Positions 41 through 17,938 of a stretch of 64,000 nucleotides of DNA are shown here, piece by piece. The stretch comes from Pseudoduganella plicata (GTDB lineage: Bacteria > Pseudomonadota > Gammaproteobacteria > Burkholderiales > Burkholderiaceae_D), in assembly GCF_004421005.1 (NCBI RefSeq), contig NZ_CP038026.1, forward strand, positions 5,084,001-5,148,000. Reading direction: 5' to 3'. Position 1 is the stretch's first letter; the number at the start of each line of letters is the position of its first letter. Made by a program: the position numbers and the translations under genes. The notes beneath the pieces are model-generated. The model was not told the origin of the DNA. It saw only the letters and a program-made list of their open reading frames with translations, and made no database searches.

Positions 41-74
41 AACATACAAAAGCGACCACTTGCAGGAGAGAGTC

Positions 75-2942
75 TTGAATCAGAAGTTGGTGTTGAAGCG
101 CAGCGTGATCGCTGTCGCCATGGCGGTAGCTGCCCAGGCAGCGTTTGCCCAGGAGGCGCAAGCCCCCGTCCAGAAGGTTTTCGTGACCGGTTCGAATATC
201 AAGCGCGCGGACAAGGAAGGTTCGTCCCCCGTCCAGACCGTATCGGCAAAGCAGATCGCCGCAACGGGTGCCAACACGGTCGCCGAACTGCTGCACTCGA
301 TCCCGGCCTTTGGCTCGGGCGCGTCGGTCGACGGTTCCGACGGCGGCTTCTCGAACGGCGCCAGCACCGCTTCGCTGCGTGGCCTGGGTTCGTCCTCGAC
401 GCTGATCCTGCTGAACGGCCGCCGCATCACGGCCTCCGCGTATGCCGACCCGAACCAGGGCAAATCGGCCGTCTATGACCTGAACACCATTCCGATCTCC
501 GCCATCGAGCGCGTCGAGATCTTCAAGGATGGCGCTTCCGCCGTGTACGGTTCCGACGCCATTGCCGGCGTCATCAACTTCATCACGAAGACGGACGTGC
601 AGGGCCTGCAGCTGTCGGCAAGCGTCAGCGCCAACGACGACGGTGAATACAAGCGCGAGAACGTCAATGGCGTCTGGGGCTTCGGCGACCTGGAGTCGAA
701 AGGCTGGAGCGGCTTCGTCGCGTTCGACGCATCGAAGCGCCAGCGTACGACGATCAAGGACCAGAAGGACGTCGAGAACGAGCTGTACCGCGACATCAAC
801 ACGCGCCTGAACCCGTTCTCGAACTCGCTGTCGGCATCGCCTTTCTTCTACAAGGAAACGAAACCGGGCAGCATGGCGTTCTTCAACAACTACGCCAACC
901 GCGCCAGTGTCATCAACCAGGTCAACTGCGACAAGTCGCAGCAACTGGTCGGCGATCGTGCAACGCACAATCTGACGGCCACCGACACCCTGATCGGTCG
1001 CACGTTCTGTAACTTCGACACGAATGGGTACAACGAAGTGCAGGGCAAGGGCGAGGACGCGAACCTGCTGTCCAAGTTCACGTTCAAGATCAACAACGAC
1101 ATCACGGCCTTCGCCGAAGCATCGTACAGCCGCACCGAGCGTTACTTCACGGCGGCCCCGCGCGCGGTCCGTTCGACGGCACCGTCGACCGTGTTCACGA
1201 ACGGCGGCATCCCGTCGCAGTTCCAGATCGTGCTGCCGGTGGGCCACCCGGACAATCCGTTCACGGATGCCCGCTCGGCGGTCGGCTTCCGCCTGGTGAA
1301 CTCCACCAACGCGTCCGAGAATATCAACGAATCGTACCGCATGGTCGTCGGCCTGCAGGGCAGCGCCAAGGGCTGGGACTGGGAAACGGCCCTGCTGTGG
1401 AACCGCGGCGAACGTACCGAACGTGGCTACGGCTACCTGTACCTGCCGACGATGCGCCGCATCATGACGGAGAACCGCACGCTGGCTGCCACGATGGCGG
1501 ACCCGACGGCCACCCGTGACATCGAGAACCGTGGCTTTGCTCAAGTGAAGCAGATCGACGCGAAAGCGTCGACGTCGTTCGGCAAGCTGCCAGGCGGCGA
1601 GATCGGCCTGGCCTTGGGCGGCGAGATCCGCCAGGAACAGATCGGCCTGACCCCGGACCTGGCAGTCCAGCGCGGCGACATTATCGGCCTGGCCAACTCC
1701 ACGGCCGACGGTTCGCGCATGGTCAAGTCGGCCTTCGTCGAACTGCGCACGCCGTTCTTCAGCAACTTCGAGATGGACTTCGCTGGCCGCTGGGACAAAT
1801 ACCCGACCGCCAGCAACTTCGTGCCGAAGGTGGGCGCCAAGTGGACCGCCAACGAGCACTTCACCTTCCGCGGCACGTTCGCCGAAGGCTTCCGCGCGCC
1901 GGCCCTGACCCAGGTTTCACCAGGCGGCGTGCAGTCGTTCACCATCGTGACCGATACGCTGCGCTGCCCGGATGGCGTCAGCCCGCGGGATGGCGCCGAC
2001 CAGGCCGACTGCTCGAAAGGTGTCTCCAGCCTGTCCGCGGCCAACCCGAACCTGGCCAACGAACGCTCGCGCAGCCTGTCGTTCGGCATGATCGTCACGC
2101 CGACGAAGAACCTGGACATCCTGGTCGACTGGTACCGCATCAAGAAGGTCGACGAAACCGCGCTGCTGGGCGCCCAGACCGTCATCGATCACAGTGCCGA
2201 GTATCCTGGCCTGGTGGTACGCGATACCAACCCGAACAACTGGGTGACCGATGCCAACGGCAACGTGATCCGCAATTCGGGCGCCATCACGCAGGTGAAC
2301 CGTTCCTACGTCAACCAGGGCAGCACCGAAGTGTCCGGTATCGACCTGGAAATCACGCACCGCCTGCCGCTGGGCGACCTGGGCAAGGTGACCACATCGC
2401 TGAACTGGGCCTACCTGGCCGAGTTCCGCCGCGCCGAGCACTACGGGGACGTGGCGCACAACCTGACCGGCACCCGTGGCGGCCTGTCCGACTGGAACAC
2501 GTCCGTGGGTGACAACCCGCGCAACCGCGGCACGCTGTCGGTCAACTGGCTGCGTGGCGACCACTCGGTCACCGCGACCGCGAACTACGTGGGTGGCGTC
2601 TCGCTGCTGCGCCGTTACGACAACGACGTGACGTACGCGCAGCCGTACTGCCACTTCGGTACCGGCCAGCCAACCGGCGCCTACGCCCTGGGTGGCCTGC
2701 CAAAGTTCACCAGCTACTTCGGCAACAACTGTTCCGTGGCGGCGTGGACGACGTTCGACCTGAACTACAGCTTCTCCGGTATCAAGAACCTGGTACTGTC
2801 GTTCAACGTGAAGAACCTGTTCGACCGCAAGGCACCGTACGATCCTGACTACGGCACCACCAGCGACTTCCAGGGCTTCAACGAGCAGCTGCACAACGGC
2901 AAGGGCCGCTACTTCCGCCTGAGCGCGAGCTACAACTTCTAA
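75..2942 (+). CDS. TonB-dependent outer-membrane receptor
   Basis: Outer-membrane beta-barrel receptor for energised uptake of a large substrate; the substrate is unknown. The N-terminus is a signal peptide ending near AQAAFAQ (about residue 26). A plug domain follows (about residues 35-170), with the typical VFVTGSNI start and the segments LRGLGSSSTLILLNGRR and IERVEIFKDGASAVYGSDAIAG. The rest is a long barrel ending in a terminal aromatic (SASYNF). The start chosen is TTG at 75 because AGGAG lies at 64-68 with a 6-base spacer. A longer reading from TTG at 60 would bury that ribosome-binding site. At about 955 residues it fits the large carbohydrate/peptide receptors common in Oxalobacteraceae. 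It stands alone, with a strong terminator behind it and no transporter or enzyme next to it to name a substrate. Confidence 0.93.
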   Translation: MNQKLVLKRSVIAVAMAVAAQAAFAQEAQAPVQKVFVTGSNIKRADKEGSSPVQTVSAKQIAATGANTVAELLHSIPAFGSGASVDGSDGGFSNGASTASLRGLGSSSTLILLNGRRITASAYADPNQGKSAVYDLNTIPISAIERVEIFKDGASAVYGSDAIAGVINFITKTDVQGLQLSASVSANDDGEYKRENVNGVWGFGDLESKGWSGFVAFDASKRQRTTIKDQKDVENELYRDINTRLNPFSNSLSASPFFYKETKPGSMAFFNNYANRASVINQVNCDKSQQLVGDRATHNLTATDTLIGRTFCNFDTNGYNEVQGKGEDANLLSKFTFKINNDITAFAEASYSRTERYFTAAPRAVRSTAPSTVFTNGGIPSQFQIVLPVGHPDNPFTDARSAVGFRLVNSTNASENINESYRMVVGLQGSAKGWDWETALLWNRGERTERGYGYLYLPTMRRIMTENRTLAATMADPTATRDIENRGFAQVKQIDAKASTSFGKLPGGEIGLALGGEIRQEQIGLTPDLAVQRGDIIGLANSTADGSRMVKSAFVELRTPFFSNFEMDFAGRWDKYPTASNFVPKVGAKWTANEHFTFRGTFAEGFRAPALTQVSPGGVQSFTIVTDTLRCPDGVSPRDGADQADCSKGVSSLSAANPNLANERSRSLSFGMIVTPTKNLDILVDWYRIKKVDETALLGAQTVIDHSAEYPGLVVRDTNPNNWVTDANGNVIRNSGAITQVNRSYVNQGSTEVSGIDLEITHRLPLGDLGKVTTSLNWAYLAEFRRAEHYGDVAHNLTGTRGGLSDWNTSVGDNPRNRGTLSVNWLRGDHSVTATANYVGGVSLLRRYDNDVTYAQPYCHFGTGQPTGAYALGGLPKFTSYFGNNCSVAAWTTFDLNYSFSGIKNLVLSFNVKNLFDRKAPYDPDYGTTSDFQGFNEQLHNGKGRYFRLSASYNF

Positions 2943-2985
2943 TGCCGTGAATGACGTTGCCGGCGCCATGCCGGCAGCCGTCGCA

Positions 2986-3020
2986 AAGCCGCCGTACCTT
3001 TGGGGACGGCGGCTTTTTTT
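2986..3020 (+). terminator. Rho-independent terminator after TonB receptor
   Basis: A 10-bp perfect stem, AAGCCGCCGT pairing with ACGGCGGCTT around a 10-base loop, followed by a T-run. It ends the receptor transcript. Confidence 0.9.
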
Positions 3021-3042
3021 CATGGGTGGAGAAATTGCGGAC

Positions 3043-3107
3043 AAAAAAAAGCCCGCGCAAGAGAGGCGGGCTTCAAACTATTATCTTGGAGGAGAATAGT
3101 GGAGACA
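3043..3107 (-). ncRNA. Candidate small RNA, sibling copy 1
   Basis: Predicted transcript of about 65 nt on the minus strand. A sigma70-like promoter (TTGGAC, 18-base spacer, CATAAT) places the start near 3107. The transcript then has a hairpin with CTATT/AATAG arms whose loop presents CTCCTCC, complementary to a Shine-Dalgarno sequence. A terminator follows: AAGCCCGC/GCGGGCTT and eight T. No convincing open reading frame is present. The layout (short RNA, C-rich loop, terminator with U-tail) is that of Hfq-dependent trans-acting small RNAs that block ribosome binding. The tandem arrangement recalls the sibling RNAs NmsR/RcoF of Neisseria. Homology to those is not claimed. The body is identical to copy 2. 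Confidence 0.65.
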
Positions 3108-3113
3108 GGTGCG

Positions 3114-3167
3114 ATTATGCTGCGTCGCCAGATATGCGTCCAATTTTGATTTCCGATAAGCGTTATA
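3114..3167 (-). promoter_or_regulatory. Promoter and upstream block of sRNA copy 1
   Basis: On the minus strand, -35 TTGGAC (3138-3143), 18-base spacer, -10 CATAAT (3114-3119). Upstream of the -35, a 14-base block (3154-3167) is identical to the one before copy 2. It contains ATAA-GCG-TTAT, an inverted repeat of LysR-box style, located roughly -47 to -60 from the predicted start. The spacer is diverged between copies while -35, -10 and this block are kept, as expected for a working promoter. Confidence 0.55.
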
Positions 3168-3431
3168 GAAAAAATCAATATCTCAGCAGTGCGCTGGTGG
3201 CTCATTGATGAGGTTGCCGCTCGGCGCGCCGGGCAAGGAGCAGGATGCATGTGTTCGCAGCGACGATGGCAGCAGCAGAATTCCGCGTAGCAGACCTGCA
3301 GGCGTGTCGGATGCGCTATCTCCATGACACTGTCGGCTTCTGTCCTGTTCGGAGGGATGGGTGCCGACAAGGATACGAACTCGGCAGTGCTCCACATGAC
3401 CGGCAACCGCCGTTCCGCACGCATTCCGGAC

Positions 3432-3496
3432 AAAAAAAAGCCCGCGCAAGAGAGGCGGGCTTCAAACTATTATCTTGGAGGAGAATAGTGGAGACA
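3432..3496 (-). ncRNA. Candidate small RNA, sibling copy 2
   Basis: Second copy of the minus-strand small-RNA unit, with the same CTCCTCC-loop hairpin and the same terminator ending in eight T (plus-strand A-run 3432-3439). Its promoter is TTGGAC (3527-3532), 18-base spacer, CATAAT (3503-3508). It lies 26 bases beyond the stop codon of the minus-strand SDR gene. Its terminator could therefore also end the SDR transcript, and an RNA processed from that mRNA's 3' end is a possible second source. The predicted RNA body is identical to copy 1, so any functional difference would come from the promoter. Confidence 0.65.
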
Positions 3497-3502
3497 GGTG
3501 AG

Positions 3503-3556
3503 ATTATGCTGCGATGCGATATATTCGTCCAATTTTGGTTTTCGATAAGCGTTATA
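3503..3556 (-). promoter_or_regulatory. Promoter and upstream block of sRNA copy 2
   Basis: On the minus strand, -35 TTGGAC (3527-3532), 18-base spacer, -10 CATAAT (3503-3508). The conserved block containing ATAA-GCG-TTAT is at 3543-3556. It sits between the SDR stop codon and the small RNA, so copy 2 can be transcribed independently of the SDR gene. Confidence 0.55.
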
Positions 3557-3582
3557 AAAACATCGCATATCTCGACGGCGCC

Positions 3583-4347
3583 TCAGTCGCTCACGGGTAC
3601 CGTGTAGTTCAGCGCCAGCCGGCCGCCGTCGACGTACAGCGTCTGGCCCGTCATGTAGCTGGCGTCGTCGCTGGCCAGAAACGCGGCGATCGCTGCCACT
3701 TCCTCCGGCTCGCCGCAACGGCCCAGCGGCGTGCGCGACAGGATCGTGTGCCGTGCCTCCGCGCTGCCCAGGACAGCCTTCCTTGCCAGCTCCGTCAGGA
3801 TCGTGCCGGGGCCGATGCCATTGACGCGGATGCCGTACGGCGCCAGGTTCAGCGCCATCACCTTCGTCAGCTGGTTGATGCCGCCCTTGGACACCACATA
3901 GGGCACCTGGTTCGGTATTGCCAGCGCGGCATTGACGCTGGACATATTGATGATGCAGCCGGACCCGCGTGCCACCATCAGCCGCGCGACAGCCTGGCCG
4001 CACAGGAACATCGATTTGAGGTTGGTACGCAGTACGCGGTCGAAGTCTTCTTCCGTCACATCGAGAAAATCGGCGGCGTGCACGACGCCGGCATTGTTGA
4101 CGAGGATATCGATGTGACCGAAGGCATCGGCGGTTGCCGCGACCAGCGCGTCCACCTCCGCCTTGATACCGACGTCGGCCTGGAAGAAGCGGGCGCCGTC
4201 GCCCAGCGCCCCGGCGGCCTGCGCCCCTTCCGGCAGCACGTCGGCCAGCATGACACGGGCGCCTTCGGCGACGAAGCGCTGCGCGATGGCCAGGCCGATG
4301 CCGCGCGTCGCGCCCGTCACGAGAGCGGTTCTATGCGTCAGTTTCAT
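3583..4347 (-). CDS. Short-chain dehydrogenase/reductase
   Basis: A 254-residue classical SDR that uses NAD(P)H to oxidise or reduce an unidentified alcohol/ketone. The cofactor motif TGATRGIG is at residues 10-17, NNAG near 90, the catalytic Ser in MSSVN near 140, and the YVVSK catalytic Tyr/Lys near 153. The C-terminal part has the family's YMTGQTLYVDGG. The start is the ATG at 4347 because GGAGG lies just upstream; the frame is open further but without a better signal. Sequence style is closest to the FabG/glucose-1-dehydrogenase-like group, where substrate cannot be read from sequence. It stands alone between the TPM operon and the small-RNA repeats. Confidence 0.88.
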   Translation of the reverse strand: MKLTHRTALVTGATRGIGLAIAQRFVAEGARVMLADVLPEGAQAAGALGDGARFFQADVGIKAEVDALVAATADAFGHIDILVNNAGVVHAADFLDVTEEDFDRVLRTNLKSMFLCGQAVARLMVARGSGCIINMSSVNAALAIPNQVPYVVSKGGINQLTKVMALNLAPYGIRVNGIGPGTILTELARKAVLGSAEARHTILSRTPLGRCGEPEEVAAIAAFLASDDASYMTGQTLYVDGGRLALNYTVPVSD

Positions 4348-16050: not shown

Positions 16051-16893
16051 TCACTCAGCGTTGATGCGCGGGCGGGCGTTGTAAAACGCGTCCTGCACCG
16101 ACGGGGCGGCCTGCACGCGTCCCGAGAACGCGGTCTTGTCCGCCACGCGTCCGGAGAACGCCGCTACATTGTCCGCACTGATGCGCCCGGAGAAAGCAAG
16201 CTTTGCCGCAATCGTGGGCTCGGCGACGCGGCCGGAGAACCCGGTGGCGGCGCTGATCCGGCCGGAAAACGCGGTCTGCCCGGCAACCCGGCCGGAGAAC
16301 GCCGTCTGTTCGCTGATGCGGCCGGAAAACGCGGTTTGCTCGGCAACCCGTCCCGAGAATGCCGTCTGCGCGCTGATCCGCCCGGAGAATGCGGTCTGGT
16401 CCGTAACCCGTCCCGAGAACGCGGTCGCTTCGCTGACCCGCCCGGAAAACGCCGTCTGTTCGGCAACGCGGCCCGAAAATGCCTGCGCCGGCGTTTCGGC
16501 ACGGGCGCCGATGCCATAGGGCTCGCCGAACGTGCTTTCGTACAGTTCCTTCATCCGCTGTCCCACGCGCTCGTGCGCCGCCTCGTCGTCCTCGCCGCGC
16601 AGTCCGATGTACGGGAAGTGGTGCAGGAAGTAGCCAAACACGGCCTCGCAGTCGATGGCGTATTTCATCGTATCGAGGATGTGGTAGTGCCAGAAGATGT
16701 CGACGTCCATCAGCGGTGCCGTCTGTTCCTGCGGGAACATCTTCATCAGGTACAGGAAGCGGCGGTACTCGAACTCGACAGCATTGGCCTTCTCCAGCGA
16801 CCAGCCTTCGCCGGACTCGACGTGCATCAGCTTGACCTTGATGGGTTCCAGGTCGAGGGCCGCGATTGGGTTGAAGTGTTCGGTAGAAAACAT
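16051..16893 (-). CDS. GRDP-like domain protein with AFSGR decapeptide repeats
   Basis: A 280-residue protein in three parts. Residues 1-115 resemble the glycine-rich-domain-protein-like (GRDP) N-terminal fold: EFEYRRFLYLMKMFP, then DIFWHYHILDT and DCEAVFGYFLHHFPYIGLRG, rich in His, Trp and Cys that could bind a metal. Residues about 138-260 are 12 copies of (A/G)FSGR(V/I); the first eight are exact 10-residue units such as AFSGRVAEQT. The tail DAFYNARPRINAE ends the protein. There is no signal peptide or membrane segment. A diverged tandem paralogue lies next to it. The function is unknown. Such arrays can be structural solenoids, binding arrays or multi-copy precursor peptides, and nothing here decides among them. 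Confidence 0.8.
   Translation of the reverse strand: MFSTEHFNPIAALDLEPIKVKLMHVESGEGWSLEKANAVEFEYRRFLYLMKMFPQEQTAPLMDVDIFWHYHILDTMKYAIDCEAVFGYFLHHFPYIGLRGEDDEAAHERVGQRMKELYESTFGEPYGIGARAETPAQAFSGRVAEQTAFSGRVSEATAFSGRVTDQTAFSGRISAQTAFSGRVAEQTAFSGRISEQTAFSGRVAGQTAFSGRISAATGFSGRVAEPTIAAKLAFSGRISADNVAAFSGRVADKTAFSGRVQAAPSVQDAFYNARPRINAE
16114..16482 (-). repeat. 12-unit AFSGR-encoding tandem repeat
   Basis: Coding tandem repeat with a 30-base period for the first eight units, then longer units. Each unit encodes (A/G)FSGR(V/I) plus a variable linker, often xxQT or xxAT. Synonymous positions vary between units, so selection has kept the peptide rather than the DNA. Confidence 0.9.
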
Positions 16894-17122: not shown

Positions 17123-17938
17123 TCAGGCAGCGTGGGTCAGACGCGGCCGTTGCGCGTAGAACTGATCGGCAGGCACCTGCGCTACGGGCATGGCGGACGA
17201 GGCCACCTGAGGCGAGCCGGAAAACGCTGCCGATGCCCGTCCCGCGGGCGCACCGGAGAACGCGGCACGGGCCGCGCCCGCCGGCGCACCGGAGAACGCT
17301 GCCTGCGTCCCGGTCGCGGCACCGGAAAAGGCGACCTGCTCGCTACCGGCAGCGGCGCCCGAGAATGCCACCTGCGCACTGCCGGTCGCGGCACCAGAGA
17401 ACGCCGTGCGCATCCGCGCGGCAGGCGCGCCCGAGAAGGCGATCTGTTGCCCGCCTCTTGCCGCGCCCGAGAATGCGGTCCGCGCCGCCGCGCCGGAAAA
17501 TGCCGTGCGCACGCCGTCGGCAGGCGCGCCGGAAAACGCGGCAGCGGCCCGGCCCGCATGGATATACGGCTCGTTGAACGTCGCTTCGTACAGTTCCTTC
17601 ATGCGTTCGCCAACCCTGTGGTGTGCCGCCTCGTCCTCCTCGCCGCGCAGGCCGATGTAGGGGAAGTGGTGCAGGAAGTAACCGAACACGGCCTGGCAGT
17701 CAGCGGCGTATTTCAGCGTATCGAGGATGTGATAGTGCCAGAACGTGTCGACGTCTTGCAGCGGTGCGGTCTGTTCCTGCGGAAATTTCTTCATCAGGTA
17801 AAGGAAGCGCCGGTATTCGAATTCGACGGCATTGGCCCGTTCCAGCGACCAGCCTTCTCACGATTCCTCGTGCATCAGCTTGACTTTGATGGGTTCCAGA
17901 TCCAACTCGGCAATCGTATCGAAATCGTTCGTGTCCAT
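17123..17938 (-). pseudogene. AFSG-repeat paralogue with in-frame UGA
   Basis: Tandem paralogue of the upstream GRDP-like gene. From the ATG at 17938 the frame reads MDTNDFDTIAELDLEPIKVK, but codon 27 (17858-17860) is TGA where the paralogue has a Gly codon in HVESGEGWSL. After it the frame stays open for 244 codons with the domain intact (DTFWHYHILDT, FGYFLHHFPYIGLRG), ten AFSG(A/S)(A/P) repeats and the tail DQFYAQRPRL. Either translation restarts downstream (for example at the ATG at 17794), or UGA is read through, or the gene is newly inactivated, or the base is an error. The repeat linkers differ from paralogue 1 (no Arg after AFSG), while AFSG and FYxxRPR are kept. Confidence 0.75.
17210..17539 (-). 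repeat. 10-unit AFSG-encoding tandem repeat
   Basis: Ten units encoding AFSG followed by (A/S)(A/P) and a 3-7 residue linker rich in Ala, Gly and Arg, with spacing of 9-12 residues. Compared with the neighbouring array, AFSG is invariant while the linker composition has changed as a block. Confidence 0.88.

Follow-up and report, generated by a model that had tools for sequence, protein, structure and literature searches.

Two short, nearly identical transcription units lie on the minus strand at one end of the 64,000-nt window of Pseudoduganella plicata DNA that we analysed (contig NZ_CP038026.1, positions 5,084,001 to 5,148,000), and they raise the question of whether they encode a pair of sibling trans-acting small RNAs (sRNAs) and, if so, whether such a pair is new. 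The initial annotation, made from the sequence alone, had proposed both, describing tandem sRNAs with anti-Shine-Dalgarno (anti-SD) sequences and knowing of no described equivalent in Oxalobacteraceae. The reading that we favour, with a probability of about 0.8, is a lineage-specific tandem duplication within the Rfam family RF02278, in which each copy has its own promoter and would give a trans-acting RNA of ~65 nt that represses uptake and catabolic mRNAs at their SD sequences.

A tandem pair within a catalogued RNA family

Every part of the layout described in the initial annotation is present. The two units are 389 bp apart, the spacing of a 171-nt direct repeat (D1) of 86% identity, and each consists of a -35 element TTGGAC, an 18-nt spacer, a -10 element CATAAT and, 6 nt further on, a 65-nt RNA closing with a GC-rich hairpin and a run of eight U (Table 1). 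The identical RNA bodies and diverged promoter spacers also hold up: the 65 nt are the same in copies A and B, and 8 positions differ in the 60 nt upstream. A promoter pattern scan met both promoters with its register shifted by one base, and gave three promoter-like sites in all against 0.5 expected. The simple terminator rule of that scan listed neither of the two terminators; folding clearly gives both (-20.1 kcal/mol, z = -3.85, with none of 200 shuffles equally stable). The predicted RNA fold has two hairpins, the second being the intrinsic terminator, with CUCCUCC in the loop of the first and a single-stranded 5' end, UGUCUCC, that forms another anti-SD site.

Table 1. Coordinates of the sRNA pair and its conserved neighbour in the window
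Feature	Position	Strand	Basis
sRNA copy B, second in transcription direction, 65-nt body	3043..3107	-	RF02278, 52.6 bits, model 1-64; 5' end inferred
Copy B UGUCUCC, anti-SD site 1	3101..3107	-	Invariant in 20 aligned homologues; complement GGAGACA in target ribosome-binding sites
Copy B first hairpin, stem ACUAU/AUAGU	3077..3100	-	Fold and covariation
Copy B loop CUCCUCC, anti-SD site 2	3088..3094	-	Sequence; columns nearly invariant
Copy B intrinsic terminator, 8 U	3043..3072	-	Sequence, fold, covariation
Copy B -10 CATAAT	3114..3119	-	Sequence; conserved in 61 upstream regions
Copy B -35 TTGGAC, 18-nt spacer	3138..3143	-	Sequence; conserved in 61 upstream regions
Copy B upstream box ATAACGCTTAT	3156..3166	-	69 of 84 units carry the box pattern, versus 4% of shuffled sequences
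sRNA copy A, first in transcription direction, 65-nt body identical to copy B	3432..3496	-	RF02278, 52.6 bits; identity
Copy A UGUCUCC, anti-SD site 1	3490..3496	-	As copy B
Copy A loop CUCCUCC, anti-SD site 2	3477..3483	-	As copy B
Copy A intrinsic terminator, 8 U	3432..3461	-	Sequence, fold
Copy A -10 CATAAT	3503..3508	-	Sequence, conservation
Copy A -35 TTGGAC	3527..3532	-	Sequence, conservation
Copy A upstream box ATAACGCTTAT	3545..3555	-	Box pattern and upstream conservation
SDR-family dehydrogenase gene, immediately upstream of the pair; a conserved neighbour	3583..4347	-	NCBIfam NF005559 above cut-off; synteny at 52 other loci

Both copies score 52.6 bits against RF02278 (gathering cut-off 50; E = 1e-7 for the window), the only family to reach its gathering cut-off in a general Rfam scan of the window. 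Weak matches to the Trp, Phe and Leu leaders, anti-hemB and others stayed below their own cut-offs and were rejected; they probably reflect the terminator. RF02278 is catalogued as 'Betaproteobacteria toxic small RNA', alias double-hairpin RNA, and those of its traits that can be read from sequence are present here, from the covariance model score and the two hairpins to the CU-rich anti-SD 5' end and first loop and the several paralogues per genome. Further hallmarks of the family are expression as an RNA of ~60 nt and toxicity to Escherichia coli on overexpression. The pair is therefore a tandem member of an already catalogued family, mostly a known regulator in a new instance.

Across 20 aligned homologues from many genera, compensatory changes occur in 8 of the 14 predicted pairs, with stems such as ACUAU/AUAGU, UCUAU/AUAGA, UCCAC/GUGGA and UCCAA/UUGGA. 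Together, the score over the cut-off and this cross-genus covariation confirm that the pair is real, far beyond chance. The proposal of tandem trans-acting siblings finds good support. The initial annotation had put its weight on the loop, which is indeed nearly invariant, but had overlooked the 5' UGUCUCC, which is invariant and at least as important.

Conservation extends to the promoters. In 61 upstream regions, the invariant columns fall within the -35 and -10 elements and also upstream of the -35, where a box of the form ATAAC-N3-4-TAT lies ~12-13 bp from the -35 in several genera. Across genera, a looser search for the box followed by AATTGG met it in 69 of the 84 units versus 4% of shuffled sequences, a comparison that overstates independence because the units are related to each other. 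It is probably the upstream motif reported as common to three of the four double-hairpin RNAs of Burkholderia (PMC5688073).

Those four RNAs (ncS03, ncS05, ncS27 and ncS62 of B. cenocepacia) are RF02278 members with CU-rich stretches covering ribosome-binding sites (PMC5688073), and the family in Burkholderia has also been studied elsewhere (PMC4603805). In Herbaspirillum seropedicae, a member of Oxalobacteraceae, RNA-seq found four expressed copies, Hsnc059, Hsnc063, Hsnc086 and Hsnc107 (PMC7011215). An equivalent of the pair had therefore already been described in this family, and the claimed novelty falls away. A literature search joining Massilia with 'toxic small RNA' found no paper.

Distribution, genomic anchor and duplication

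The genome contains six RF02278 matches, four of them over the cut-off, and four of the six lie outside the pair in the window. All 61 genomes searched from the same genus carry the RNA in 4-14 copies each; the genome collection groups strains of Massilia, Duganella, Pseudoduganella and Rugamonas under this genus. At least one copy is present in 179 of the 195 genomes of the taxonomic family (again by the collection's definition), representing 42 of its 44 genera. Conservation outside this strain, which the initial annotation had named as a check, is thus extensive. Matches in the wider class are weaker, exceeding the cut-off in 3 of 274 genomes, and a search of 14 control genomes gave no match. 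At other loci, tandem copies occur in four other genomes of the genus, 199-679 bp apart, and pairs ~210-230 bp apart are found in many genomes of one other genus of the family; the tandem layout is therefore a recurring habit of the family.

Three further matches in this genome (G000:C1:3241325-3241385, 2499618-2499684 and 3328663-3328722), two of them below the cut-off, keep a CGUCUCC/GUCUCU-like 5' end and have an altered CUCCUCC loop, for example CUUCUUUCU. This suggests paralogues with changed second seeds.

In a search of named genomes, 52 other loci have the same SDR gene with an RF02278 unit of this sequence subtype behind it (UGUCUCCACUAUUCUCCUCCAAGA or a close variant), nearly all from Massilia, Duganella, Janthinobacterium, Rugamonas or Pseudoduganella, and mostly Oxalobacteraceae; the remaining 28 SDR loci, nearly all in more distant genera, are without the sRNA. 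The SDR-anchored sRNA is usually single-copy and usually lies 75-116 nt past the SDR stop codon; copy A starts ~85 nt past it. Such proximity could mean that the RNAs arise chiefly from the 3' UTR of the SDR mRNA, as processed or attenuated ends, and that the tandem copy is a functionless duplicated terminator region. The spacing of ~85 nt is kept at most of the 52 other loci, and processing does generate Bordetella S17S (PMC11722255) and one form of ncS27 (PMC5688073), yet we consider this origin unlikely: the -35, the -10 and the upstream box stand at fixed spacing in both copies, and the other four genomic matches are situated elsewhere. Furthermore, in several Massilia genomes (for example, at loci L329, L350, L354 and L359), extra sequence, perhaps a gene, sets the sRNA ~570 or 1100 nt past the SDR gene, so that it is independent of SDR read-through. 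Transcription from a dedicated promoter for each copy is the reading that we retain.

Doubling of the SDR-anchored sRNA is seen here and in one relative (G028), whose second-copy flanks match those of the second copy in the window, so the duplication predates the split of the two strains. The two bodies in the window agree even in the terminator loop, but the relative's two bodies do not match one another; this suggests homogenization of the window copies, probably by gene conversion.

The surroundings hold further features. A TonB-dependent receptor gene (window positions 60-2942, plus strand) is convergent with the sRNA pair and has its own terminator at ~2985-3018; among 20 longer stretches compared, only that of G028 has the receptor in this position. 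Further away, an open reading frame at 16051-16893 (minus strand) encodes a decapeptide like EQTAFSGRVA repeated about ten times and contains a 30/60-bp DNA tandem repeat at 16250-16483, with a second, shorter array at 17316-17405.

The family name invites another explanation, that these are growth-arresting, 'toxic' RNAs, for example one partner in a type I toxin-antitoxin-like element, and not fine-tuning regulators. Cloned homologues do inhibit E. coli and overexpression of ncS27 slows growth (PMC5688073, PMC4603805), but silencing of ncS27 speeds growth (PMC5688073), Bordetella S17 is hardly toxic, and toxicity on overexpression is expected of any broad anti-SD RNA. With neither an antisense partner gene nor an encoded peptide visible at the locus, and with many chromosomal copies in every species of the genus searched, we regard a primarily toxic role as improbable. 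Least credible of all is the idea that a mobile or REP-like repeat, present in many copies, only mimics an sRNA gene, an idea which the 4-14 copies per genome and the recurring tandem copies might evoke, but which is largely refuted by the orthologous SDR synteny at 52 loci and further opposed by covariation that spares the anti-SD sites and by the expressed homologues in Burkholderia and Herbaspirillum. A search for a plasmid or phage origin of the pair gave no match.

Candidate targets and a proposed mechanism

If the pair acts as a trans-acting repressor, its targets may be sought among ribosome-binding sites complementary to the 5' end. The exact complement of UGUCUCC, GGAGACA, occurs 3-9 nt before an ATG 81 times in this genome versus 15 for the reversed pattern, three of the 81 sites being the sRNA genes themselves. 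This count alone proves nothing, because a permuted SD, GGAGAAC, shows enrichment that is no weaker (127 versus 11 reversed), and we rejected global enrichment as evidence of targeting; another permutation, GGAGCAA, is not enriched before start codons.

The functions of the genes are more informative. Uptake or catabolic functions account for 26 of the 43 Pfam-matched open reading frames that follow GGAGACA versus 3 of the 31 that follow GGAGAAC (Fisher p = 8.7e-6; 5 of 31 and p = 1.4e-4 with a lenient control), with classes assigned by hand, unblinded, by the analyst, and with control genes drawn from roughly the first half of the genome and some long-spacer sites left out. The uptake genes encode MFS and TRAP transporters, periplasmic binding proteins and a TonB receptor, and the catabolic ones glycoside hydrolases, PaaA, HPPD, enoyl-CoA hydratase, alanine dehydrogenase and acyl-CoA/CoA-transferase enzymes. 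At paaA, the best-conserved site, GGAGACA is kept in 27 of 30 species of the genus, its position shifting; at hppD it is kept in 10 of 30 (GGAGAC in most), below the thyA control, where GGAGAAC is kept in 16 of 30. Targets reported for ncS27 fall in the same classes (PMC5688073) and include phenylalanine and tyrosine catabolism (PMC10987360), double-hairpin RNAs have predicted carbon-metabolism targets, and Bordetella S17 acts on transporters and paa genes (PMC11722255).

From these patterns, trans-acting repression of catabolic and transport genes is the likely function. Each copy would be transcribed in this strain, on a putative inducing signal, from its own sigma70-type promoter, probably assisted by a regulator that binds the ATAAC-N3-4-TAT box. 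The resulting RNA of ~65 nt could pair through its 5' UGUCUCC and loop CUCCUCC with GGAGACA or GGAGGAG in the SD region of mRNAs for nutrient uptake and for carbon or aromatic-acid catabolism; ribosomes would then be kept from binding these mRNAs and expression would fall. Hfq, whose gene is present in the genome, probably binds the RNA and assists pairing. Having two copies may raise the dose of the RNA or place it under two inputs.

A bolder and rather doubtful extension is that Oxalobacteraceae possess an RNA-defined catabolic regulon, in which carbon-uptake and catabolic genes would retain GGAGACA as their SD because it is the shared address of a multicopy RF02278 set, copies differing mainly in promoter and loop, one regulator acting at ATAAC-N3-4-TAT and the tandem pair serving as a homogenized dosage amplifier. 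For a poorly studied and very widespread family, the locus adds testable detail in the form of the SDR anchor, the cross-genus promoter box, catabolism-centred candidate targets with paaA foremost, and a clear case of tandem duplication with homogenized RNA bodies.

Comparison with known systems

The closest relatives are the Burkholderia ncS and Herbaspirillum Hsnc RNAs, which the pair resembles in sequence, short length, two hairpins, several copies per genome, a CU-rich anti-SD 5' end and loop, a common upstream motif and predicted carbon-metabolism targets. Unlike them, the copies described here are adjacent and identical in their bodies, and stand behind an SDR gene in an arrangement conserved in Oxalobacteraceae. 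Rhodobacter CcsR, one of the alpha-proteobacterial CCUCCUCCC-loop RNAs, can be likened to the pair by description, having a C-rich anti-SD loop and repeated copies; it is co-transcribed with a small open reading frame and driven by a stress sigma factor.

Bordetella pertussis S17 is related to RF02278, and its homologous 5' Site 1, an anti-SD sequence, is its main site of pairing with ribosome-binding regions, among them those of transporter and paa genes; S17/S17S is Hfq-dependent (PMC11722255). RNase E releases S17S from a longer transcript under BvgA control, whereas each copy here has its own adjacent promoter. The comparison with Neisseria NmsRA/NmsRB (RcoF1/2, NgncR_162/163), already drawn in the initial annotation, fits as a likeness in design and output: these, too, are tandem siblings with anti-SD motifs that down-regulate metabolic genes (PMC5362039), but they are 70% identical and their described targets are TCA-cycle genes, whereas the two bodies here are the same throughout.
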